From Pontixanthobacter sp. CEM42 (GTDB lineage: Bacteria; Pseudomonadota; Alphaproteobacteria; Sphingomonadales; Sphingomonadaceae): a DNA stretch of 64,000 nucleotides. Every line of letters starts with the position of its first letter. Position 1 is the stretch's first letter. Of this stretch, positions 1 to 10,954 are shown one piece after another. The stretch is from contig NZ_JADQTN010000001.1 of NCBI RefSeq assembly GCF_017812015.1, positions 1,652,501 to 1,716,500 of the forward strand. The letters are read 5' to 3'. Both the position numbers and the translations under genes were made by a program. The notes under the pieces are model-generated. The model was not told the DNA's origin. It saw only the letters and a program-made list of their open reading frames with translations, and did not search any database.

Positions 1-1257
1 CTAAAAGGGGGTGCGGCGATTGCTCTCGCGGGCGTGCAACTGGCAATCATTGCATTGCTAGCCCCAGTGCTCTTGCTGATGGTCTTCGGCTTGATGTTGA
101 TCGCTGCCGCAGTGACGATACCCCTGCTCCGAAAAGCTGATCGCTTAGGTCAGCGGCTAACCAAGTCGGGACGCAAGATACACAGCGTGCTGGGCGACTT
201 TCTCATCAGCCAGAAACTGGCGCGACTGAACAATGCCGAAAACGAGTTCTTTGATCGCTTTGACGGCTCGGTGCGCGATGTTCGCTCCCATCAGTCGGAG
301 TTTTTCGCGTCGCAAACTGCGGCAAGAGTAGGGTTCCAATTTGCAGCGGGCTGTGTGGTCGTTGCCGCGCTGCTGGTGGGTTTCTTCGCGCTCCAAACAC
401 CGTTGTCGATCTTGGCAGTGACGCTACTAGTGTTGGCCCGTTTGGTCGGCCCCGTGCAGATGATCGCGCAAACAGGGCAAGCGATTGCCAACACTCTTCC
501 GGCCTATTCATCTCTGCAAAACACCTTGGCTGAACTTCAGGCCAATGCGGAGCCGTCCATCAATCTTGACGACATCGAACCGAAGACCGGTCCGGCCGCG
601 CTCACGCTTTCAGCTATCTCGTTCGCATATTCCGAGAATAGTTCACCAGTCCTGCAAGGGATCAATTTGTCCGTCGCTCCGGGCGAAATCGTGGCGATTG
701 CAGGCGTATCGGGAAACGGAAAAACTACTCTACTCGATATCGTCAGCGGACTGCACAAATGCGCCGAGGGAACTGTCGCGGTTGATGGCAAGCAGCTCAT
801 TGAACCTTCTGATTTCCGTAATTGGCGCTCCCAATCGGCCTACCTCCCGCAAGATCCATTTCTGTTCGACAGCAGTTTGCGCGAGAACCTCACTTGGTCT
901 GCACGGGAAGTCAGCGATGACGCTTTATGGACGGCGCTCGAAACCGCCGAAGCAGACCAGTTCGTCCGCAAAATGCCTGATGGTTTGGGTAGCCGTGCAG
1001 GTGAACGAGGGCAAAACCTATCGGGCGGCCAACGCCAGCGAATATGCATCGCGCGAGCACTCCTTCGAAAGCCGCGATTGTTGATTCTAGACGAGGCGAC
1101 AAATGCCCTCGATGCACAGCTAGAGAAAGATATCCTGCACCGACTCATTGCTATGCGCGACCAATTTTCGATAATCTTGGTCACACACCGGCCCGATACG
1201 CAGCGTCTGGCTGATCGCATTGTAACACTCTCTGGCGGGACGATTGTAAGCCGATGA
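1..1257 (+). CDS. ABC transporter, 5' partial (probable lasso peptide exporter)
   Basis: The frame is open from the first base, so the N-terminus and several membrane helices lie upstream. What remains is hydrophobic membrane-domain sequence (two helical stretches in the first 150 codons) followed by a complete ABC ATPase: Walker A GVSGNGKTT near codon 236, signature LSGGQRQR near codon 340 and Walker B LLILDEA near codon 362. The GTG at 34 is only an internal codon. It is coupled to the next gene by an ATGA overlap. In a RiPP operon the natural role is export of the finished peptide and self-immunity (D protein). Whether an N-terminal peptidase domain exists cannot be seen. ABC assignment is certain; the lasso role is inferred from context. 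Confidence 0.85.
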   Translation, partial: LKGGAAIALAGVQLAIIALLAPVLLLMVFGLMLIAAAVTIPLLRKADRLGQRLTKSGRKIHSVLGDFLISQKLARLNNAENEFFDRFDGSVRDVRSHQSEFFASQTAARVGFQFAAGCVVVAALLVGFFALQTPLSILAVTLLVLARLVGPVQMIAQTGQAIANTLPAYSSLQNTLAELQANAEPSINLDDIEPKTGPAALTLSAISFAYSENSSPVLQGINLSVAPGEIVAIAGVSGNGKTTLLDIVSGLHKCAEGTVAVDGKQLIEPSDFRNWRSQSAYLPQDPFLFDSSLRENLTWSAREVSDDALWTALETAEADQFVRKMPDGLGSRAGERGQNLSGGQRQRICIARALLRKPRLLILDEATNALDAQLEKDILHRLIAMRDQFSIILVTHRPDTQRLADRIVTLSGGTIVSR

Positions 1258-2066
1258 GCAGCGAACTGATTGAACAGCGCCGCGCTTCCATCAAGCGACA
1301 TCTATTCCTGCTGTGTCCCAACAACAGCGGCTCGACCTATCTGTCTCGCGCACTTGCGACATCGCAATCTGTGTGGAGCCTGGAGCGCGAAGGGCAGCAC
1401 ACGCTAGGTTTTGCAGGACCGCATACAGGCGCGTCACCCTGGCCGCTGATCTGGGCCGCGGAAGAGAAGTCACTCACACATTTCCGCAATTCGCGTGATT
1501 ATGATTGGGAACGGACCAAGAAAGCCTGGTATTTCCATGCAACCGCAGCTCGCGATGATGCCCCGGTTTTCCATACTAAGTCTCCCCCGTTTCTACTGAT
1601 CGCAGACCAATTGGCCGCGAATTTCGAGAACCCGTCTTTCTTGTTCATGGTCCGCAATCCATATGCCGCGCTTGAAGGGATTCTAAGGCGACGTAAGCCA
1701 GTCGACGACGGGGACCTTCAACTTAACATGCCCAGGATTGCGGCGCGGCATCTAATTACGTGTTTCAAATACCAGCGCGACAATATCGCGCGTTATGCTG
1801 ACGATTCTTTCGCCTTTTCCTATGAGGCCTTGTGCAGCGATCCTGCCGAGATCGCACGCGGAATATCGGAGCTTGCTCCCGAACTGAACGATCTTCACCT
1901 ATCGCAAAGGCTCGCTGTAAAGGGCACTTATGACGAGACACTGCGCAACATGAACGATGACCAGATTGCCCGACTGACCGACGCGCAAATCGCGATGGCA
2001 AACGAGGTTTTTCGCCCAAATGCGGAACTGCTGTCGCATTTTGACTATTCACTGATCAGAACCTAG
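1254..2066 (+). CDS. Sulfotransferase family protein (first of two in the RiPP operon)
   Basis: 270 residues. The N-terminal NNSGSTYL (about residues 23-30) is a variant of the PAPS 5'-phosphosulfate loop, and FMVRNPYAALEG near residue 130 matches the 3'-phosphate-binding RNP element. These are sulfotransferase-fold hallmarks, so the enzyme probably moves sulfate from PAPS to a hydroxyl. The start ATG overlaps the stop of the ABC gene, so it is translationally coupled. The acceptor is unknown; inside this operon the precursor peptide (Tyr, Thr, Ser side chains in the tail) or a sugar on it is the obvious candidate. It is only distantly similar to the second sulfotransferase, which suggests different acceptors rather than duplication. 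Confidence 0.75.
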   Translation: MSSELIEQRRASIKRHLFLLCPNNSGSTYLSRALATSQSVWSLEREGQHTLGFAGPHTGASPWPLIWAAEEKSLTHFRNSRDYDWERTKKAWYFHATAARDDAPVFHTKSPPFLLIADQLAANFENPSFLFMVRNPYAALEGILRRRKPVDDGDLQLNMPRIAARHLITCFKYQRDNIARYADDSFAFSYEALCSDPAEIARGISELAPELNDLHLSQRLAVKGTYDETLRNMNDDQIARLTDAQIAMANEVFRPNAELLSHFDYSLIRT

Positions 2067-2118
2067 GCGTAGACTGAACATATCACGATATGATGTGATG
2101 TGTTGAGGAATCGGAATA

Positions 2119-2715
2119 GTGCCGCCTAAGGTTCAAAAACCACTGAATATCAGGCTTTTAAACTCGGTTGACGCACAGAAGTTGACGGCGCTCGCGCAGC
2201 GCGTATCGTCAACCACCTGGGGCGACGAAGACGGGCGAAAAGAAAACGATTTCGACGTATTCCATCACACGCAACATGTGATTTTTCGCTTCATTCGTGA
2301 CAACCGTGATCCAGAGGATTGCTACGCCAACCCCGCTTGGGATATTTGGGAGCCGGTGCTGATGCCGGTTATGCAGGCAGCGATTGCGCCCTATCAATTC
2401 CGCAAGCCGCAATTTCCGAAAGCGATGCTGGCCAAACTCGCTGCGGGACACACAATCGATCCGCATTATGACGGGGCTGGATCGAACCAGCGTGTCCACA
2501 AAATTCATGTCCCGCTGGTCACCAATTCCGAAGCAACGTTTCTCGTCAACGGCGAGAACTTCCACTTGGAGACGGGCAAAGCTTACGAAGTGAACAACAT
2601 CGTTTCCCACGGCGCGGCAAATGGCGGACCAGAGGACCGCATCCATTTCATCTTCGAGGTGTTTGAAAGCGACTACGAAGACGCCCAGCAGAACGGCGCG
2701 ACCGCCAATGTATAG
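2119..2715 (+). CDS. Aspartyl/asparaginyl beta-hydroxylase-like 2-oxoglutarate oxygenase
   Basis: 198 residues from a GTG preceded by GAGGA at about 2104. The Fe(II)/2-oxoglutarate signature is visible: HxD (H116, D118 in PHYDGAG), a distal His at 154 (SHG) and Arg164 in EDRIHF for 2-oxoglutarate. The layout fits the Asp/Asn beta-hydroxylase family (PF05118). An Fe/2OG enzyme of this general type hydroxylates an Asp in the lasso peptide canucin (knowledge of that pathway). Here the core holds two Asn and one Glu but no Asp, so Asn31 or Asn37 of the precursor would be the candidates. The kinase gene starts inside its last codons, so the two are co-translated. Family is well supported; substrate is inference. 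Confidence 0.8.
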   Translation: MPPKVQKPLNIRLLNSVDAQKLTALAQRVSSTTWGDEDGRKENDFDVFHHTQHVIFRFIRDNRDPEDCYANPAWDIWEPVLMPVMQAAIAPYQFRKPQFPKAMLAKLAAGHTIDPHYDGAGSNQRVHKIHVPLVTNSEATFLVNGENFHLETGKAYEVNNIVSHGAANGGPEDRIHFIFEVFESDYEDAQQNGATANV

Positions 2716-3613
2716 CGCCTATGGGTTGGCAATACAGTCGGACATAGCACTCCCCGCCCTAACCCGGATCGAACCAACAACGCCAAATATTACCATCGCG
2801 GCGGCAAACATCCCCGCAGATGCAGGCGGCAAAACCAAGTTTCGCAATTGGGAAGCCGAGCCTAACCGCTTCCTAAGCCACTTCTTTGGTATCGGGCGGT
2901 TTCTCGTCACAGGCGGCGACACCATCCACTACACCCCTGAAGACGGCGCGGACGACACGCAGATCATTTCGATCCTTCTGGGAACCGCACTTGCTGCTGC
3001 TCTGATGCAGCGCAGGATCCTGCCGATCCATTCGTGCAGCGTGTTGACGGACAAGGGCGCAGTGCTGGTGATGGGGCGTTCCGGCGCCGGTAAATCGACC
3101 ATGCTCGGCGGATTGCTCGCGCTGGACCTGCCGATGCTGGCCGACGATGTGACCGGACTCGATGTGGACGCAGCTGGAATCCCCATGGCCATTCCCGGCT
3201 TTCCGGCAATGCGGCTTTGGGAGGACTCGCTAACCGAACTCGGCCACACATCTGATGGTCTTGCGCAAGTTCGCAGAGACATCAGCAAGTTTTATCTACC
3301 GGTCTCAAAATTCCATGGCGCACCCGAACCGATCAGGGCGATCATCCATCTGACAGCCAGCAACGAATCCGAGGCACGGATCGAGACGATGAACCAAGCG
3401 GAGCGCGTCGAATGCCTATCCCGCTTCATCTTCCGCAAGAAGTTCATTGACGGCATGGGCATGCGTCGCTTTGCTTTCCAGCAAGTTGCGAAAACAATCA
3501 ATCACGTCACTCTCCTCAGGGTTACCCGCCCGGCTGCCACGATAGAGCCCAAACAGCTTGCGCAAACGATGCTGGATCAGATTGCAGAAACCGAAGCGGC
3601 GACAGCCCCGTGA
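2708..3613 (+). CDS. HPr kinase/phosphorylase-like peptide kinase (lasso tailoring kinase)
   Basis: 301 residues starting at the ATG that overlaps the preceding stop by 8 bp; a longer upstream frame exists but lies wholly inside the hydroxylase gene. Walker A GRSGAGKS is at residues 123-130 and the acidic pair DD at 146-147, as in HprK catalytic cores. HprK relatives in lasso clusters (paeninodin PadeK, ThcoK) phosphorylate the C-terminal Ser of the precursor. The precursor encoded at 4942-5073 ends in Ser, which supports this function. HprK-related genes also occur beside PqqD-like genes in exopolysaccharide/exosortase loci, but no exosortase is seen. Overlaps the next gene through GTGA. Confidence 0.8.
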   Translation: MYSAYGLAIQSDIALPALTRIEPTTPNITIAAANIPADAGGKTKFRNWEAEPNRFLSHFFGIGRFLVTGGDTIHYTPEDGADDTQIISILLGTALAAALMQRRILPIHSCSVLTDKGAVLVMGRSGAGKSTMLGGLLALDLPMLADDVTGLDVDAAGIPMAIPGFPAMRLWEDSLTELGHTSDGLAQVRRDISKFYLPVSKFHGAPEPIRAIIHLTASNESEARIETMNQAERVECLSRFIFRKKFIDGMGMRRFAFQQVAKTINHVTLLRVTRPAATIEPKQLAQTMLDQIAETEAATAP

Positions 3614-4485
3614 CCACAGCCCAGTTCAACAATGACCAAAAGCTGGTCTGGCTTGCCTCTTATCCAAAGTCCGGCAGCACTTGGTTGCGCAGTTTGTTGA
3701 CTGCCTATCTGCTGCCCGGCGATGAGTTTGATCTCAACGCTATGGTCGGTGAGCATGACCCGTTTGATAGGCAGATGTTGGATGATCATGCTGGCATCAG
3801 TTCCGCGGATTTCCTGCCGCACGAGCTGATGCCATATCAAGCGCAGCTTCACTGCGATATGGCGCGCGAAAGCGACGATTGGCGATTAATCAAAACGCAT
3901 AGCGCCTATCTAACGGCGGATGGAGGAAAAGAACTGTTCCCGGCCTCAGCCAGCGCCGGAGCCATCGTAATCGTGCGCAATCCGATCGACATTGTCCCTT
4001 CCTATGCCCACCACGAGGGCAGGGATTACGACTGGATAATCGCACATATGCGCAACGAGGATGCCGGTGCCGATAGCTGGCGCAATCGCAGTACCCCGAT
4101 GCTCCCACAGCAAATGTCGAGTTGGTCGATTAATGTCGAGAGCTGGCTCAGCCAGTCCAAAATCCCGATCCTAATGCTGCGGTATGAAGATATGCATCGC
4201 GATCCTGAAACTAGCTTAACTGCGGTTCTGCGCTTTTGTGCAATCGATGTCGAACCGGACTTGGTAACAAAGGCAATCGCCCGGTGTAGTATCGACCGCC
4301 TAAGAGCGGATGAGAAACAAACGGGATTTAACGAAAGACCGTCTACCCGACGAACTTTCTTTCGTTCGGGGACAATTGGAGATGGCCTAAGAAGCCTATC
4401 GCATGAACAAATCAAGATGATATTGGCCGATCATGGCAAACTCATGGATACCGTCGGCTACAATTCCGAAGTGCCAGTTATCTAG
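3610..4485 (+). CDS. Sulfotransferase family protein (second of two)
   Basis: 291 residues from a GTG overlapping the kinase stop by 4 bp. It has a textbook PAPS loop, YPKSGSTWLRS (residues 18-28), and the 3'-phosphate element IVRNPIDIVPSYA near residue 122, as in cytosolic sulfotransferase-fold enzymes. A C-terminal RRTFFRSGTIGDG stretch resembles the conserved RKG-type PAPS-binding region (here RSG). It most likely transfers sulfate from PAPS to an alcohol or phenol. Presence of two dissimilar sulfotransferases within five genes of a RiPP precursor is unusual. Function on the peptide is inferred from operon context only. Confidence 0.8.
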   Translation: MTTAQFNNDQKLVWLASYPKSGSTWLRSLLTAYLLPGDEFDLNAMVGEHDPFDRQMLDDHAGISSADFLPHELMPYQAQLHCDMARESDDWRLIKTHSAYLTADGGKELFPASASAGAIVIVRNPIDIVPSYAHHEGRDYDWIIAHMRNEDAGADSWRNRSTPMLPQQMSSWSINVESWLSQSKIPILMLRYEDMHRDPETSLTAVLRFCAIDVEPDLVTKAIARCSIDRLRADEKQTGFNERPSTRRTFFRSGTIGDGLRSLSHEQIKMILADHGKLMDTVGYNSEVPVI

Positions 4486-4511
4486 AAAAAAGTGAATAAG
4501 CAGAGAAATTT

Positions 4512-4808
4512 ATGAATCAGTCCAAGTCAACACTGTCGACGGATAGCGTCGTCAAGCACAATGAAGATGTGCTGTTCAGCGAAGTGGCCGATGGCATGTC
4601 ACTGATGGATATCGAGAGCGGGAAGTACTTCCATTTTGACGAGACCGGCGCACGCATCTGGAAGCAGATAAATGGTGAGATGCAGATCAGCGAAATCTGC
4701 GACAAACTGCAATACGAATTCGACGTGGAAGCCGAAACCTGCCAAAGAGATACGCTAGAGTTCCTCCAAGAACTAGCGGATATGGACCTCGTAAAGACCG
4801 GAGGATAG
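4512..4808 (+). CDS. PqqD-like RiPP recognition element (lasso B1 protein)
   Basis: 98 residues. The pattern is that of PqqD/RRE proteins: an early beta region (VLFSEVADGMSLMDIESGKYFHFDE), then GARIWKQI and a helical C-terminal half (ISEICDKLQYEFDVEAETCQRDTLEFL). Such proteins bind the leader peptide and deliver the precursor to the protease and cyclase. It sits directly upstream of the precursor gene. In split lasso systems B1 partners with a B2 transglutaminase-like peptidase, which is not found in this window. The same fold occurs in HprK-linked exopolysaccharide loci, but the adjacent small peptide and cyclase favour the RiPP reading. Confidence 0.8.
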   Translation: MNQSKSTLSTDSVVKHNEDVLFSEVADGMSLMDIESGKYFHFDETGARIWKQINGEMQISEICDKLQYEFDVEAETCQRDTLEFLQELADMDLVKTGG

Positions 4809-4863
4809 TCGGGTTCGTACAATTCTTACCCGGCTGGAAACTATAGGTAAAACTACAATATTC

Positions 4864-4892
4864 TTGCCAGAGCTCCATTTCTCATCTTTAAG
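4864..4892 (+). promoter_or_regulatory. Candidate promoter for the precursor peptide
   Basis: TTGCCA at 4864-4869 and TTTAAG at 4887-4892 are spaced by 17 bp in the 133-bp gap between the B1 gene and the precursor. An internal promoter here would allow the precursor to be made in excess over the upstream genes. The -10 match is weak. Confidence 0.3.
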
Positions 4893-4941
4893 AGACGGAG
4901 CAATGGGCAATTTCTAGCGATTATATCGAGGGGTACCGACC

Positions 4942-5073
4942 ATGAGCAATGCAAAAGATAACCGGACGGAATGGAAAAAGCCGCAGGTGACTGCAATCAC
5001 ACCGGTACGCCGTACGCGCGGTGGTCCGGGTAACATCCGTCCAGTGGAAAACGCTTTTTACGCGACCTCGTAA
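4942..5073 (+). CDS. Lasso-type RiPP precursor peptide (43 aa)
   Basis: A 43-codon gene with GAGGGG at 4929-4934 as ribosome-binding site, 7 bases before the ATG. The leader carries WKKPQVTAITPV, resembling the KP-hydrophobic motif bound by lasso RREs, then RRTR. The putative core is GGPGNIRPVENAFYATS (residues 27-43). With Thr25 at position -2 the core starts at Gly27 and aligns with paeninodin (AGPGTSTPD, recalled from the literature). The only acidic acceptor is Glu36, which is core position 10 in that register and position 9 if the core starts at Gly28. The terminal Ser43 is the expected kinase target; Tyr40, Thr42 and Asn31/37 are candidates for the other tailoring enzymes. TAA is followed at once by TAG. 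No experimental proof; the assignment rests on sequence and context. Confidence 0.78.
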   Translation: MSNAKDNRTEWKKPQVTAITPVRRTRGGPGNIRPVENAFYATS

Positions 5074-5113
5074 TAGAAGCGATTTGTATTCGTCATTTGG
5101 CGACACAAAAATG

Positions 5114-5148
5114 AAAACGGGCGCAACTGAAGAGTTCGCGCCCGTTTT
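5114..5148 (+). terminator. Hairpin terminator/attenuator between precursor and cyclase
   Basis: AAAACGGGCG (5114-5123) pairs perfectly with CGCCCGTTTT (5139-5148). The stem extends inward by C-G and, past a bulged C, AACT/AGTT, closing on a GAAG loop. The 3' arm ends in TTTT, as in Rho-independent terminators. It lies between precursor and cyclase, where lasso operons commonly carry such a hairpin. It probably lowers cyclase expression relative to precursor while letting some readthrough pass. Confidence 0.75.
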
Positions 5149-5195
5149 GCTATTTCCTGTTGCCATGTCTGACAGCAGGGTAAAGACAATCGATC

Positions 5196-6851
5196 ATGCT
5201 GCTCGCTAAATTCGACAGGCAATCACCAACAACGCGCGATGCGCCCGGCGACACCGTAATCCTCGCTGATGCCCGGATTGATGACCGCCAGGCACTGCTG
5301 GCGAAGTTGGGGATCACACAGCCCATAGCTGACGAAGGGCTAATCCTCGAAGCCTATGCACGATGGGGCGAAAAATGCGTCGATCATCTGATCGGTGACT
5401 TCGCATTTGTCATTGTCGACGCGCGGCGCAAGCAAATTTTCTGCGCGCGGGATTACATCGGCGCGCGGCCACTGTTTTACTCGCTCGACCATGACGAGTT
5501 ACATATCGCCGGCGATATCGCAGGCCTAGCGAATGATCGGTCGCGCGAATTTGATCATCGCGTCGTCGCCTCAGTCCTCGCGTTCAACACCTACTTCCCA
5601 ACAGACCGCACGCTCTTAAAACACGTCAAAAGGCTTCCACCCGGTCATACTCTAACCGTTCGCGCTGATAGCCACACGTTGGAACGATATTGGGAACCAC
5701 GCAATTTTTCGCTGCTGAAACTGCCAAGCGACGATGACTACATTGAGTCTGGTCGTGAGCTTCTAGCCCAAGCAGTTTCGGACAGATTGCGCGATACGGC
5801 GCGACCGTCAGTACATCTGAGCGGCGGGCTGGACTCATCGGCTGTCGCCGCGCTCGTCACGAACTCGCAACGCGAAGCTGGCCACTCCGATCCGCTAGCT
5901 TACGCGTGGTATCTGGGCGATACTGACAATCCAGCAGACGACGAAACGCGGTGGGCAGAAGCTACCCGATCGGCGCTCGATGTAGTCATGCACGCACCAA
6001 CAGCCACAGTCGATGGACTCACCGCGATTTTACGGGCTGACTGGTGCCTCGCGCCCGATGCATCCAACCTGTTTGGCGAAACCGCAATACTGGACCACGC
6101 CCGCTCTCACGGTGTGGACACCATTTTGTCCGGCTGGGGCGGTGACGAGGGATTATCTTTCAACGGGCGCGGGTACCGCGCGGAATTGCTGATGAGCCTG
6201 CGATGGCGAGAGCTCGCGTCCATCTGCAAAGGTCCATTTCCTGCATCGCTGGCGCGCGGCATCAAGCAGGGACTCGGAGAACTTGCTCAATCAAAGACTG
6301 GTGAGCAAGCGAAGGCAAAAATCTGCACAAGTTACTTGAGGCCAGAAATCGTCGCCGACGTAGAGCTATTTACCCCTGCACCAATATCACTTCATAGTTC
6401 CCGTCAGGCGATGGCAAGTTTGCTGGAAACGGGCGCGCAAACTGCACGGCTTGAAGATTGGGCAATTGCCGGTCGATCCCACGGAATAACCTATTCTTAT
6501 CCGCTATTGGATCGCCGGGTCATCGAGTTTGCTTTGTCGCTTCCCGGGCATTTATTCTATCGGCCGGAGGCGCGGCGTTGGATCATGCGCAAAGTACTTG
6601 ATCCAAAACTGCCCGATTTGGTCCGTTGGAACGATAGCAAGCTGGAGCTCGCCCGTGTGAACCATCTCAAAGCGCTTATGGCAGAAGCTTTCGAGCAATG
6701 CGCTGATTTGCTCGAAGGATGCAGCGATTTTGAAGGCAGAGAGCAGTTTGTTAATGTAGACAGACTCATCGATGATTTGCGCGGCCCGAAGGAAAACCTG
6801 TTGGACAATTTTTCAAACAAGCGCCGCGCGCTGCAATTCCTGAAATTCTAA
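5196..6851 (+). CDS. Asparagine synthetase-like lasso cyclase (C protein)
   Basis: 551 residues; the ATG follows an in-frame stop at 5181-5183. The N-terminal half has the class II glutamine-amidotransferase fold (GDFAFVIVDARRKQIFCARDYIGARPLFY), but residue 2 is Leu rather than the Cys nucleophile, so glutaminase activity is absent, as in lasso cyclases. The C-terminal synthetase domain has the ATP pyrophosphatase loop SGGLDSS (209-215) and later GWGGDEG. These enzymes adenylate the Asp/Glu side chain of the core so that the new N-terminal amine closes the macrolactam. It follows the precursor gene and hairpin and is 1 bp from the glycosyltransferase gene. A true asparagine synthetase is unlikely given the missing Cys. 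Confidence 0.85.
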   Translation: MLLAKFDRQSPTTRDAPGDTVILADARIDDRQALLAKLGITQPIADEGLILEAYARWGEKCVDHLIGDFAFVIVDARRKQIFCARDYIGARPLFYSLDHDELHIAGDIAGLANDRSREFDHRVVASVLAFNTYFPTDRTLLKHVKRLPPGHTLTVRADSHTLERYWEPRNFSLLKLPSDDDYIESGRELLAQAVSDRLRDTARPSVHLSGGLDSSAVAALVTNSQREAGHSDPLAYAWYLGDTDNPADDETRWAEATRSALDVVMHAPTATVDGLTAILRADWCLAPDASNLFGETAILDHARSHGVDTILSGWGGDEGLSFNGRGYRAELLMSLRWRELASICKGPFPASLARGIKQGLGELAQSKTGEQAKAKICTSYLRPEIVADVELFTPAPISLHSSRQAMASLLETGAQTARLEDWAIAGRSHGITYSYPLLDRRVIEFALSLPGHLFYRPEARRWIMRKVLDPKLPDLVRWNDSKLELARVNHLKALMAEAFEQCADLLEGCSDFEGREQFVNVDRLIDDLRGPKENLLDNFSNKRRALQFLKF

Positions 6852-6852
6852 T

Positions 6853-7737
6853 ATGGCAGCGCCCACACAAATATCAGAGATCGTGACTGTCACATCGCGC
6901 GGCTATTTGCCAGGCACACAGGTGATGCTGCATTCGTTCTTGCACCACAATCCATGGTTCGACGGACAGATTACAATCTTGCACGACGATTTGTTGGCCG
7001 ACGATATGGCTACGCTTCGCCTCGGTTTTCCAGCCATCACATTTGTGGGTCCGTCGACCGAACTGACGGCGGCGATGGACACGCTGGTAGCGGACTTCCC
7101 AAATTTGAAAGACCGACAGCGGCGCTTCCTCTCATTAGAAGCATTTCACCCTGATCGCATTGGCCGCGCACTGTTTTGTGACGGCGATCTTCTGTTCCGC
7201 AACGATGTCTCTGCGATACTTGGTGCCAACGCCCAACTGATCGCATGCGGTGATCGCGCACAGATCGCTGGCGCTGGGCGCGATCCCGCGTCCATGAAAG
7301 AGCGCAGCGCATGCGATCCAAAGACCGATTCTGATAGCTTCAATGCAGGGCTAATGGTGATTGATGAGTCACTTCGAACAGAAATTGTCTGGAACCAGCT
7401 TCTGGGCCAACTCGATCCTCAAGCATGGCAATCGGTAACCTCAGACCATACCGACCAAACCGTTTTTAACCGCCAGTTCGGCAATCAAGTGACGCTCGCC
7501 GATCCTGCCTACAACTATCTGGTTGGCCATGCCGGACGCGTACGTTCGGCAATAGCAAGCCCAATGAGCGATGCAAAAGTCCTCCACTTCAATGGTCCTG
7601 CAAAGCCGTGGAATTTCGGCGCGCATCTGGCAGCGACAGCGAACGACGCAAGCTTTGTGAAGGCCATGCAGCACTGGTTTGATGCCTACATCGAATTCTT
7701 GTCATCCTATCATTTCGCGCTTGGTTCGCCGGATTAA
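6853..7737 (+). CDS. GT8-like glycosyltransferase
   Basis: 294 residues. The N-terminus (VTVTSRGYLPGTQVMLHSFLHHNPWF) and the CDGDLLFRND element carrying a DxD-type metal/nucleotide-sugar site fit glycosyltransferase family 8 or a close GT-A relative. HFNGPAKPW near residue 243 matches the C-terminal H-x-x-G-x-x-KPW motif of GT8. It begins 1 bp after the cyclase stop, so it is almost surely co-transcribed with it. In this operon it may glycosylate the peptide, or add a sugar that is then sulfated. It is the last gene of the operon and converges on the minus-strand permease fusion. Confidence 0.78.
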   Translation: MAAPTQISEIVTVTSRGYLPGTQVMLHSFLHHNPWFDGQITILHDDLLADDMATLRLGFPAITFVGPSTELTAAMDTLVADFPNLKDRQRRFLSLEAFHPDRIGRALFCDGDLLFRNDVSAILGANAQLIACGDRAQIAGAGRDPASMKERSACDPKTDSDSFNAGLMVIDESLRTEIVWNQLLGQLDPQAWQSVTSDHTDQTVFNRQFGNQVTLADPAYNYLVGHAGRVRSAIASPMSDAKVLHFNGPAKPWNFGAHLAATANDASFVKAMQHWFDAYIEFLSSYHFALGSPD

Positions 7738-7741
7738 CGGT

Positions 7742-10700
7742 TCAGCGGGTACGACGGACAACCAACTCGCTATTGGCGTCGAATGGTCCCTTTAGCGCAG
7801 TCTTGCCGCCATCGCGCCATGTTACCTGGACGGACTTCACTGTCATCGCGTTACCCAAGCCAAAATGCGCTTGCGGGTGAATTCCCGTCGCAAAACCGCC
7901 GCTCTGGCGGATCTCACGGAGCTGTTTGCCGTTTTCGGTTTCAATCACGACTTGTGCACCAACTCCCGCACGATTGCCGATAGAATCTTCTAAACGCACC
8001 CAGAACGCTCTTCCCGATGGCGCATCGTTGCGATGGACGATCGGCTGCGTCAGGGCCGATGCGCGGATAACATCCATATCGCCGTCACGATCATAATCGG
8101 CCAGCACATAGCTGCTTGTTGCCATGCCATCCGCTAGGCCAAACCGCGCCTCATCACGTACAAATTTCTTGCCTTTCAGGTTGCGATAGAATGCGTTGGG
8201 AACGGTGGTCCTATGATAGGTCATCCCCGATCCGACGAATACATCCTGCCAACCATCCTGATCGAGATCTACGAAGCGCGAGTTCCAACTCCAGCCGGGC
8301 CGGTCAAGGCCTAGCTCTTCACTGCGATCCTGATATTTGTCCCGGGCATCCATCTGCAGAAAGACATTACGGCGGCCAATTCCGCCGACATAATCCATCT
8401 TCTCGATTGCCTTTTTCGCATCAGGGAATCGTTCGGATGCGGCCCGAATGCAGTGACGGACAAATATCTCGCCCAGACCTGCAACATTATCACAATCGCC
8501 TGTATCCGATACGTAACCAGCCCGTTGGATTGCACTGATCCCGGCACACATTGCGCGATAAGTCGGATCGCCGATGCGATCACATTTGGAGTATGTGGCA
8601 TGGGCAAATTCCATCGGTTCCGACCGGTACCGCGTATTTAAATAGCACTCGCCAACCGATCCGATGTTAAGCTGCGCGTCCTCACAATATTTGAATGAGG
8701 GAGCGTCTTGCATGCGCGTCGTCGGCATAGCGATCTGCGCAGAATAGAGTTCTTGGCGCAGATCGTTATCGATATCCCCCATATCGTAGCTCATGGTGGT
8801 GCGTGTGAGATACGGGATCAGGCCTGACGACTTCTTGGCGAGTTCAAATGTCCGGTCACCGCGATTGAGATAAATCTTGTCAGCCGTCGAAACATCATCG
8901 CCAATCGCGATGTCGGGGCGCCCATCCAGATCGATATCAGCGACCAATGATGTAAGGGATTCTCCAGGAATACCCTCAAGCTCCTGCGCTTCGAATGTGC
9001 CATCGCCCTCGTTCCAGAAAATCCGGTCTTGCGAGGCCATTAGATAGGGATCGTTGTTGTTGCCGACCGTGCCCAGTGACCAGTTTGCGGCAACGATATC
9101 CAGATCACCATCATCGTCGAGATCAGCAAACGCTGGCGCACCCATCATCCCGGCGTTGCCGTTGGGCAGAAGCGTGCGATTTGCGTAGGAAAATTTGCCA
9201 TCAACGTTCCACAAAATGTTGGTGTCATGCATGAAATTGGAGATCAGTAGATCAGGTAGGCCGTCACCATTCAGATCAGTAAATGCCATAGAGCCGACAA
9301 ATTGATCTGCAGTAGGGCCTAAATCAATCGGAACTTCGACAAAACGCCCGCCACGATTGGAAAAAAGTTGCAAACCGCCGACCGAGGGATTGCGCGCGAT
9401 CGCAACATCAACCCAGCCATCCTGCTCCAAATCGCTAGCCGCCATCGCCCAATACATCAGGTACGGCTCCAACACATCCATACCGATCGCATATGGTTCG
9501 ACATCGATACCCACTTCCGGACCAAGCAAGCGCTCGAAACCTGTCTCGACTGCGGGAGCATAGGTTTGTGTCATCACAGGAGAAACCAACGCCGAAACGG
9601 CACCTTCGCCGGAATGTGCAATGTCAGCACCTGCTGCGCTATACAAAACAGGTTCCGCCGCCGGTTCATCGACTACCGTGTCAGCGGCCATCAATGGCGC
9701 GACCGGACGTTCCAATTCGAAGCCATCAAGATAGCTGATATTTGCACGGTGCGTTTCCAGCACGACATACTTGTCAGCATAGTTCGCCGCCACCCCGCAG
9801 ACGACTGCGAGGCCTGCCAATGAGGCCATCATGCCGCTGGCAATCTTCCACGACACGGCTCTCCCCACGATCATGTAAGAATAGATGCTAAAGCAGCCGA
9901 GCGCGAACATCAGCGTCATCGCATATTTCACTGGCCACCCGGCATTGACCAAGATCACCGCCAAAATAACGTCGAACGCGATTGGTACCGGCAAAACAAT
10001 GCCCAGCACGGCGATCCCGACCATTGTGATCAGGATCATGATTTCGGAACGCGGTGCACCAATTGCACGGCGAAAATCATTCCAGTCGAATACCGTCACC
10101 ATGATCGCACCGAGAACGCCCGCGAGGATCATCAGTGGCACTGTCACCGCAACGATAAACATCAAATTGCGACCAAACGTCTTGGCAAGCCAGGCTGCTG
10201 CTTTGGGCCAACTATCGACATCGGATGCGGGAACAGGCAGCGGACGCAAAGCCTCTAACTTGCGGGCGATCCAACCGCGTTTGTCGTCGAGTTCGTTATG
10301 CGCCCGATCGAGCGCCTCTTCGCGGAAGCCGGAACTTCCCAGAATGCGCGTCAGGATCGGCACACCGATGATTACAAATGCCAATGCGCCAAGCAGCTTG
10401 ATCGCGGCCATGTGCGTGGGCAGCAGCGCGAAAGACATACTCACCACAATCACATTCAACGTCGGCGACGCAACGAGCGCACTCAGTGTCGTTTCCAACC
10501 GCATCCCCGCGCTATGTAGGCCACGTGCGATAGGCGCAGCGCAGTTCACGCACACGCCCAACGGCGTACCGATGGCGGCACCTAAAGCAGCGTTGGCAAA
10601 CGGATTCTCGAAGCCCCGCCGTTCGATCAAGCCGAACAATGTGAGCGCGCATGCAGCGAACAGCACGCCGAAAGTCATGCCCTTCCAATTGGTGTACATC

Positions 10701-10954
10701 CAATTGATTGAGTTGACGAAAACTTCCCACAAAATACTGCTATTGGGTAGCATTTCGAGGACCTGGTCGAAGGCGATACCGCTCATATCGGCGTCGCCGC
10801 CCATCATCGCTTTCTCATCAAGCGCGGGATATCGTGACTGGGTCCAGAAATAGAGCGCGATGAATGCCGTCAACAAAGCCGCCAGCACTAACCGGCGGTC
10901 GCTCAATAGCCGCGCCAGCATGCCTTGCTCCGAAGGTACTTCAAGCGTGTTCAT
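7742..10954 (-). CDS. Permease-FG-GAP-ASPIC/UnbV fusion protein
   Basis: 1070 residues. The first ~410 hold about nine hydrophobic helices with GVCVNCAAPIARGL, matching the predicted permease family PF03773 (ArsP_1-like). The remainder carries a series of FG-GAP/VCBS calcium-binding blades (DLNGDGLPDLLIS, DLDDDGDLDIVAA, DIDLDGRPDIAIG, DLDQDGWQDVFVG, DYDRDGDMDVIRA) and a C-terminal ASPIC/UnbV domain (GNRAGVGAQV ... HFGLGN). So a membrane transporter-like unit bears a large, probably periplasmic, beta-propeller. It is transcribed toward the RiPP operon, 4 bp from the glycosyltransferase stop. The substrate is unknown. The frame is continuous across the joint with no sign of a frameshift. Confidence 0.85.
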   Translation of the reverse strand: MNTLEVPSEQGMLARLLSDRRLVLAALLTAFIALYFWTQSRYPALDEKAMMGGDADMSGIAFDQVLEMLPNSSILWEVFVNSINWMYTNWKGMTFGVLFAACALTLFGLIERRGFENPFANAALGAAIGTPLGVCVNCAAPIARGLHSAGMRLETTLSALVASPTLNVIVVSMSFALLPTHMAAIKLLGALAFVIIGVPILTRILGSSGFREEALDRAHNELDDKRGWIARKLEALRPLPVPASDVDSWPKAAAWLAKTFGRNLMFIVAVTVPLMILAGVLGAIMVTVFDWNDFRRAIGAPRSEIMILITMVGIAVLGIVLPVPIAFDVILAVILVNAGWPVKYAMTLMFALGCFSIYSYMIVGRAVSWKIASGMMASLAGLAVVCGVAANYADKYVVLETHRANISYLDGFELERPVAPLMAADTVVDEPAAEPVLYSAAGADIAHSGEGAVSALVSPVMTQTYAPAVETGFERLLGPEVGIDVEPYAIGMDVLEPYLMYWAMAASDLEQDGWVDVAIARNPSVGGLQLFSNRGGRFVEVPIDLGPTADQFVGSMAFTDLNGDGLPDLLISNFMHDTNILWNVDGKFSYANRTLLPNGNAGMMGAPAFADLDDDGDLDIVAANWSLGTVGNNNDPYLMASQDRIFWNEGDGTFEAQELEGIPGESLTSLVADIDLDGRPDIAIGDDVSTADKIYLNRGDRTFELAKKSSGLIPYLTRTTMSYDMGDIDNDLRQELYSAQIAMPTTRMQDAPSFKYCEDAQLNIGSVGECYLNTRYRSEPMEFAHATYSKCDRIGDPTYRAMCAGISAIQRAGYVSDTGDCDNVAGLGEIFVRHCIRAASERFPDAKKAIEKMDYVGGIGRRNVFLQMDARDKYQDRSEELGLDRPGWSWNSRFVDLDQDGWQDVFVGSGMTYHRTTVPNAFYRNLKGKKFVRDEARFGLADGMATSSYVLADYDRDGDMDVIRASALTQPIVHRNDAPSGRAFWVRLEDSIGNRAGVGAQVVIETENGKQLREIRQSGGFATGIHPQAHFGLGNAMTVKSVQVTWRDGGKTALKGPFDANSELVVRRTR

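Follow-up and report, generated by a model that had tools for sequence, protein, structure and literature searches.

What does the dense row of genes at the start of a 64,000-nucleotide stretch of Pontixanthobacter sp. CEM42 make? The stretch (hereafter the window) covers positions 1,652,501 to 1,716,500 of contig NZ_JADQTN010000001.1 (C1:1652501-1716500) in a genome of 3.08 Mb, with two contigs and a completeness of 100. A preliminary description had read the first 7,737 positions as a heavily tailored operon for a lasso-type ribosomally synthesised and post-translationally modified peptide (RiPP), and this reading is supported by the presence of B1, B2 and a cyclase (C) without an N-terminal Cys, and of a precursor in 11 of the 13 clusters compared. 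As a whole, the locus is probably a lasso cluster of the phosphorylated kind (paeninodin, SyanK, pseudomycoidin) equipped with an unusually large tailoring set. Its elements are given below in gene order, L008 being the stretch fetched around the window, which includes sequence upstream of position 1.

Within L008:10158-10781, + strand: B2 leader peptidase, transglutaminase-like (PF13471, E 7e-18; NF033537, 66 bits for a cut-off of 33)
L008:10784-12028, - strand (divergent): nucleotidyltransferase, NT (PF14907, E 4e-50)
1..1257, + strand: ATP-binding cassette (ABC) exporter, lasso D, 3' part (PF00005/PF00664); the gene begins upstream, open reading frame (ORF) L008:11958-13757
1254..2066, + strand: sulfotransferase ST1 (Sulfotransfer_3; Pfam, motifs and structure matches)
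2119..2715, + strand: AspH, iron/2-oxoglutarate (Fe/2OG) oxygenase of the Asp/Asn beta-hydroxylase family (Asp_Arg_Hydrox, PF05118, E 4e-11)
2708..3613, + strand: HprK-like peptide kinase, K (first ATG at 2621, start at 2708 likelier)
3610..4485, + strand: sulfotransferase ST2 (Sulfotransfer_1; Pfam and structure matches)
4512..4808, + strand: B1, discrete PqqD-type RiPP recognition element, RRE (PF05402; NCBIfam NF033536)
4942..5073, + strand: precursor peptide A, 43 aa, leader W..P.V...TPV..T-R, core GGPGNIRPVENAFYATS
5114..5148, + strand: terminator-like hairpin directly 3' of the precursor (-23.2 kcal/mol, z -5.4)
5196..6851, + strand: lasso cyclase C, Asn-synthetase-like (PF00733, GATase_7; NF033535)
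6853..7737, + strand: GT8 glycosyltransferase (PF01501, E 1e-15; structure 3tzt, E 9e-9)

The nine genes named in the preliminary description were all recovered on the forward strand at the same positions, and their tight packing was confirmed, with overlaps of 4, 8 and 4 bases and gaps of 52, 26, 133, 122 and 1 bases, each series in gene order; the 8-base overlap assumes the kinase start at 2708 and becomes 95 bases if counted from the ATG at 2621. Three elements had been missed, namely B2 and the nucleotidyltransferase, both upstream of the window, and a conserved convergent gene (7742-10954). Five tailoring enzymes had been claimed and all five are present, while the count itself has to be raised to six, with the nucleotidyltransferase lying just upstream of position 1. 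Taken together, the full set (B2, NT, D, ST1, AspH, K, ST2, B1, A, C and GT8) corresponds, by its sequence matches, to a lasso core plus six candidate tailoring enzymes.

Concerning the lasso core, the top NCBIfam models are the lasso PqqD one for B1, which also scores far over the PF05402 cut-off, and the lasso cyclase one for C. The leader of A fits the [Y/W]xxPx[hydrophobic] lasso consensus given in a passage of PMC13381572. C is devoid of the N-terminal (glutaminase) Cys, as a macrolactam cyclase would be, and B2 is the sole PF13471 match of the whole genome. Besides C, the genome holds two stronger Asn-synthase matches, and a scan of genome contigs found only distant Asn-synthase relatives (23-30%).

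As for the precursor, no NCBIfam model matched it. Compared with its closest relative, in locus L036, 26 codons differ, of which 23 are synonymous (one being the stop codon) and three replacing, all three within the first ten residues; judged by this substitution pattern, the 43-residue ORF is under purifying selection. Identical bases between the two loci amount to 104/132 in the ORF, 92/133 in the gap before it and 87/122 in the gap after it. L036 also retains the hairpin (-25.2 kcal/mol, z -4.1) with altered stem bases, and longer stretches folded from L037 and L038 gave z-scores of -3.2 and -1.9, respectively; the hairpin 5114..5148 is absent from the list of a consensus terminator scan. 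This structure could end a short transcript, raising the precursor over the enzymes.

The distribution of the cluster was analysed over 397 family genomes. In 17 of them, the window's own included, the cyclase was matched at E 1e-40 or better (with up to three candidates scored per genome), and larger stretches were fetched for the window's genome and 12 others, as well as for the other four and for a second match in G222. Homologous clusters, some incomplete, are present in 12 other genomes. Role profiles were built from the 13 main loci themselves, and pairwise tblastn was also run: C, B1, K, AspH and ST2 are present in 13/13 loci, ST1 and GT8 in 12/13 each, GT8 being missing only where the contig ends before its site, while NT was found in 10, B2 in 9 and ABC in 6 of the fetched stretches. 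The conserved small peptide that had been expected beside the cyclase is encoded within 11 of the 13 clusters: nine have it between B1 and C, L045 before AspH and L046 after GT8; the other two genomes carry precursors far away. Given these 12 other genomes with homologous, if not always complete, clusters and a small ORF apparently under purifying selection, the gene set is held to be beyond chance. Mirror-tree correlations of 0.73-0.98 over 45 family pairs, uncorrected for the species tree, fit co-inheritance and were given little weight.

AspH of the window type is present in 7/8 genomes of the genus. At E 1e-15, AspH was found in 26/397 family genomes, non-lasso relatives included, and in a class-wide sample at 1e-20 in 2/385 (the window's own genome and one at 33% identity). 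AspH homologs were rejected as a lasso marker on their own, as 12 further family loci (L118-L129) show no cyclase match in the stretch. Among these, L120, on a contig of 7.5 kb, has an exporter homolog and is possibly a truncated cluster. L119, L122-L124 and L126-L129 belong to a separate cassette, in which AspH relatives (37-40% identity) have a second AspH-profile match nearby and no lasso core gene; L119, read gene by gene, also encodes a Sulfotransfer_2 protein and TonB-receptor-like and TPR-like proteins.

Three further loci were recorded. G089 possesses a divergent cluster (L048:7679-17388) with two AspH matches, two kinase matches and a further 2OG oxygenase (PF13640). In L130:8312-12490, GT8, AspH, kinase, B1 and ST1 stand beside precursor-like ORFs, with no cyclase match within 20 kb. 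A Thalassobaculum plasmid (L145:8369-20894) carries B2, two PqqD, asparagine-synthase-related, kinase homolog, sulfotransferase, ABC and nucleotidyltransferase genes, and is, by this content, a lasso-type cluster in a different gene order.

The active-site motifs of the kinase, AspH, ST1 and ST2 are conserved and intact. In AspH, H116-x-D118, H164 and R174 are invariant in 14/14 sequences, and we take them, from family knowledge, to form the Fe/2OG site; its top solved relatives are 'Beta-hydroxylase' chains (E 5e-4). ST1 keeps SGST and RNP-type motifs in 13 sequences, presumably the site for 3'-phosphoadenosine 5'-phosphosulfate, and its closest solved structures are the CurM sulfotransferase (2e-8), followed by protein-tyrosine sulfotransferases (about 1e-3). 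ST2 is closest to Teg14, Teg12 and StaL (E 5e-30 to 5e-25), which we take to be glycopeptide-antibiotic sulfotransferases, and an adenosine 5'-phosphosulfate kinase for sulfate-donor synthesis is encoded in the genome. For the kinase, the Pfam match is weak; a 15-homolog profile run against solved structures placed HPr kinases first (1jb1, 2qmh, 1ko7; 3tqf sixth), with E-values from 1.8e-6 to 8e-5, a range in which P-loop ABC proteins reach 5e-5. Its H137, K158, D175 and D176, invariant in 15/15 sequences, match the His-Lys-Asp-Asp motif described for lasso kinases and mutated in ThcoK (passages of PMC9266682), which favours the phosphorylated-lasso reading. The kinase with this motif thus stands together with a precursor ending in Ser, as in paeninodin-like clusters, and the nucleotidyltransferase, present in most of the loci, is shared with pseudomycoidin.

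As no in-cluster precursor was found in G179 and in the broken assembly of G322, these two genomes were searched in full: G179 has four precursor copies within 1.5 kb, 1.2 Mb from the cluster, and G322 has three. The 11 in-cluster precursors were then turned into a profile, with which 25 selected genomes were searched. It matched all 13 that have the main cluster (E 4e-11 or better); as 11 of the 13 had themselves contributed to it, independent matches come only from G179, G322 and the remote copies. Among the 12 genomes without the main cluster, only G037 fell below 0.05 (a leader-only fragment, 9e-4), G205, G151 and G089 gave matches at 0.06-0.09, that of G089 falling on the precursor-like ORF of the divergent cluster L048, and eight gave none. 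The G037 fragment (L191:8150-8266) is leader-like (W..P) with no core, in a genus member without the AspH cluster, and is possibly the relic of a lost system.

In total, 18 remote precursors were found in 6/13 of the related genomes (seven in G291, four in G179, three in G322, two in G044 and one each in G259 and G015), while the window's own genome has a single copy, the in-cluster one. Sixteen of the 18 lie at two shared hot spots, the G044 pair being elsewhere. The first is situated between S9-peptidase and HhH-GPD glycosylase genes in five genomes, the second upstream of a BamD-type (YfiO) gene in two genomes; one S9, one HhH-GPD and two YfiO proteins were named with Pfam, the rest by likeness. 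The S9-peptidase/HhH-GPD interval (L182, L183, L186, L188, L190) is a precursor site common to two genera. In some relatives, one enzyme set may therefore make several products, including those of the remote precursors.

All 29 precursors (11 in-cluster, 18 remote) have a C-terminal Ser and, at position -4 or -3 relative to the end, a Tyr, with the reservation that they were found by pattern or profile, a bias towards these very features. In the 26 tabulated precursors, core residue 1 is G, A or S, residue 2 is G or A, and 25 have Thr at -2. The ring acid was defined as the Asp/Glu located 4-5 residues before Tyr, in the 26 tabulated precursors and in three read by hand: counted from Thr(-2), it falls at position 8 in two, 9 in 13, 10 in 12 and 11 in two (n=29). 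In core A, which also holds Asn5 and Asn11, it is at position 10, or at position 9 with Thr at -3. Starting the cores one residue later puts the acid at 7-10, a better fit, but moves Thr to -3; the leader W and P of A then lie at -17 and -14, the register reported in a passage of PMC10368454.

Regarding acceptor residues, the C-terminal Ser is the kinase target in paeninodin and SyanK, according to passages of PMC8498205 and PMC9266682, and on this precedent it is proposed as the target here; BsfK phosphorylates Ser3 instead (PMC10368454, in part). Core Tyr was found in 13/13 AspH-type clusters with a precursor (the 11 plus L048 and L130) vs. 2/11 others (Fisher 4e-5, uncorrected for relatedness); in L130, an additional precursor-like ORF lacks Tyr. 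The GT8 family includes glycogenin, which glucosylates Tyr; with ST1 leaning towards tyrosine sulfotransferases, this makes Tyr a candidate for ST1 or GT8. Tyr was disfavoured as the ST2 target, ST2 being also present in six AspH-less clusters; it is better linked to AspH, ST1 and GT8, and the last two are indistinguishable by this means. The position that follows the ring acid, Asn11 in the window, was considered as the AspH target but not assigned: it is Asn/Asp in 10/11 in-cluster precursors (Gln in L040), but 11/18 remote ones have Ser, Val, Ala, Gly, Thr or Met there.

Gene content, conservation, the motifs, the remote precursor genes and the conserved neighbourhoods can be read directly in these genomes; from them we infer the chemical steps, their order, the acceptors, the role of the neighbouring permease, and that remote precursors are used by the cluster. 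The precursor would be transcribed from a short unit terminated by the hairpin, and B1 would bind its W..P.V leader. Tailoring would take place on the linear precursor: the kinase would phosphorylate the conserved C-terminal Ser, and the nucleotidyltransferase would extend the Ser phosphate, as PsmN does. AspH would hydroxylate some core residue, sulfates would be added by ST1 and ST2 and a sugar by GT8, and the likeliest acceptor of ST1 or GT8 would be the conserved Tyr close to the C-terminus. B2 would then cut the leader off after Thr-Arg, C would link Gly1 to the conserved Glu, and the ABC protein would export the finished product, on which the permease/propeller protein might act by uptake, retention or self-protection. 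The extra, distantly encoded precursors of some relatives may be served by this machinery as well.

Several observations weigh against this account. Both B1 (69.5 bits for a cut-off of 80) and C (250 for 525) remain under the strict NCBIfam cut-offs. No ABC homolog was found in seven of the 13 fetched stretches, no B2 in four and no NT in three; this patchy recovery of B2 and ABC in the fetched stretches speaks against complete units everywhere. The acid at position 10 here, and at 8-11 over the 29 precursors, goes beyond the natural lasso range of 7-9, and Ala replaces Thr at -2 in a single remote precursor, which also lacks the leader Pro. Four of the AspH-less ST2 clusters (L050, L110, L111, L112, L115 and L117) have no core Tyr, and 7/29 cores are devoid of any Asp or Asn, so that AspH cannot always act on these residues.

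The conserved neighbour, convergent to GT8, is the following gene.

7742..10954, - strand (convergent): 1070-aa fusion of an ArsP_1-type permease (35 bits, cut-off 32), FG-GAP repeats and an UnbV_ASPIC domain

This fusion is present in 21/397 family genomes at 23 distinct places (at most two candidates a genome were scored). Of the 22 assessable places (one more being a 3.5-kb contig), 19 have a cyclase-profile match in the same fetched stretch of up to 20 kb, in several arrangements, including places without the DsbD-/UbiH-like flanks and AspH-less clusters; many share descent (genera g1 and g16), so that the independent events are fewer. The three places without a cyclase match are in G037, G023 and G089, and a second copy in G377 is partial. 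No fusion was seen near cluster L042, and the L047 stretch ends too early. A precursor-like ORF (L116:7358-7516) lies ahead of one fusion copy. The fusion was rejected as a lasso-only gene, as no B1, B2, C or kinase match was found near it outside the family: the best places of 8/8 Rhodobacterales plasmid records and G417, the only genome of a phylum sample (378) with the fusion besides the window's own, lack lasso profile matches, apart from two weak ST2 matches. Its neighbours on these plasmids (L132-L139) and in L140 vary, and include type II secretion genes, sulfotransferases and very large proteins of Ig-like or tail-fiber-like type; the Parasedimentitalea annotation splits it into a permease and a CRTAC1 protein. 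Passages of PMC10368454 report an FG-GAP repeat protein bordering one end of the Bradymonas bsf cluster, presumed uninvolved by the authors. The fusion may handle exported, anionic products.

It is unlikely that the peptide is modified by the kinase, NT and ST2 alone and that AspH, ST1 and GT8 serve something else, such as the permease/propeller protein or a surface glycan. This division of labour would suit the stretches that have AspH relatives (37-41% identity) but no lasso genes, such as L119 with its TonB-receptor-like and sulfotransferase genes, and the plasmid permease family, found beside sulfotransferase, glycan, surface-protein or type II secretion genes without B1, B2, C or kinase. 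It is countered by the presence of AspH and GT8 in every locus not cut by a contig end, by ST1 in 12/13, and by the way all three track core Tyr (relatedness again uncorrected).

Quite unlikely is a modified peptide that is no threaded lasso, either an unthreaded macrolactam or a linear peptide like the polyphosphorylated ones of Bacillota, which share kinase, NTP-transferase and RRE with lasso clusters (PMC13381572, in part). The acid is indeed more variable in position than in known lassos, and B2 escaped detection in four stretches; against this, B2 and C are both encoded here and C in 13/13 loci, whereas the linear family lacks a macrolactam cyclase according to the same passages. Passages of PMC8498205 give known rings of 7-9 residues, and a lasso analogue with a ten-residue ring made in vitro.

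Available parts of PMC10040529 list the gene set (B2, nucleotidyltransferase, ABC, sulfotransferase, aspartyl beta-hydroxylase, hypothetical protein, sulfotransferase, PqqD, asparagine-synthase-related and glycosyltransferase) as orthogroups 1738-1748 (1745 unlisted), co-occurring with halotolerance in six Pontixanthobacter/Allopontixanthobacter strains; the numbering runs in the window's gene order, and the cyclase was read there as an asparagine synthase, the lasso set going unrecognised. That the Asn-synthase protein makes asparagine and glutamate for salt tolerance while the transferases decorate a glycan is nevertheless extremely improbable: C is devoid of the Cys for glutamine hydrolysis, B1 and B2 are accompanied by a conserved precursor, the genome has two stronger Asn-synthase matches elsewhere, and no glycan gene set was seen here. 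Apart from GT8, no glycan assembly gene was seen around the operon in the flanks inspected, so the known polysaccharide function that would have spoken against a lasso product did not emerge. The flank genes, besides the permease fusion, are presumably DsbD-, UvrB- and UbiH-like, being named by likeness.

The phosphorylated-lasso reading can be extended to one cluster serving a genome-dispersed precursor library, with up to six enzymes acting in trans on a constant Tyr-x-x-Ser tail and a hypervariable ring of 8-11, the phosphorylated, sulfated, hydroxylated and glycosylated lassos being received by the dedicated permease/propeller protein; we regard this extension as tentative and, on balance, doubtful. 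The shared tail and variable ring suggest a modified tail as common handle and the ring as variable message. If this is true, the product would be, as far as found, the first sulfated lasso peptide and the most heavily tailored one, as well as the first with precursors in islands distant from the enzymes, in which case mining beside the cyclase only would undercount products. The permease/FG-GAP/ASPIC protein would then be a testable candidate for receptor, transporter or self-protection; the FG-GAP neighbour of the Bradymonas kinase-type cluster had been presumed uninvolved.

In the parts of PMC8498205 and PMC9266682 available, kinase, nucleotidyltransferase and a sulfotransferase gene are already noted in Firmicutes lasso clusters, and hydroxylated and phosphoglycosylated lassos are already characterised; a term search of these 2021 and 2022 reviews yielded no sulfated lasso product. 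Literature listings, covering few subscription journals, showed no sulfated lasso product and no six-enzyme set described as a lasso cluster. Term-matched passages, with no dedicated literature search made, held no description of remote lasso precursors; they do mention clusters encoding several precursors and the remotely encoded deiminase of citrulassin.

Among known systems, the paeninodin type (PadeK, ThcoK, and SyanK of Sphingobium) shares with the window the split B1/B2, C, ABC, the HprK-like kinase with its His-Lys-Asp-Asp and the C-terminal Ser of the precursor. The window cluster adds AspH, two sulfotransferases and GT8, and its cores are short (15-18 residues), with a conserved Tyr and an acid at 8-11 under the Thr(-2) rule. 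Pseudomycoidin (psm, phosphoglycosylated) shares the kinase and nucleotidyltransferase beside lasso genes, whereas the window cluster has four further candidate tailoring enzymes and a divergently transcribed nucleotidyltransferase. With canucin A, the common trait is a 2OG oxygenase in the lasso cluster; the Fe/2OG beta-hydroxylase CanE, however, hydroxylates a C-terminal Asp, while window-type precursors end in Ser and 7/29 lack Asp/Asn in the core. In prochlorosins, one enzyme serves many dispersed precursors, and the scattering of precursors away from one enzyme set is shared, although these are lanthipeptides and not lasso peptides. Finally, the bsf cluster of Bradymonas sediminis has, as far as the passages on it go, the kinase, the nucleotidyltransferase, B1/B2/C/D and a bordering FG-GAP repeat protein in common with the window, and differs by a kinase acting on Ser3, by Ile at -2 and by seven named genes without sulfotransferase or AspH.

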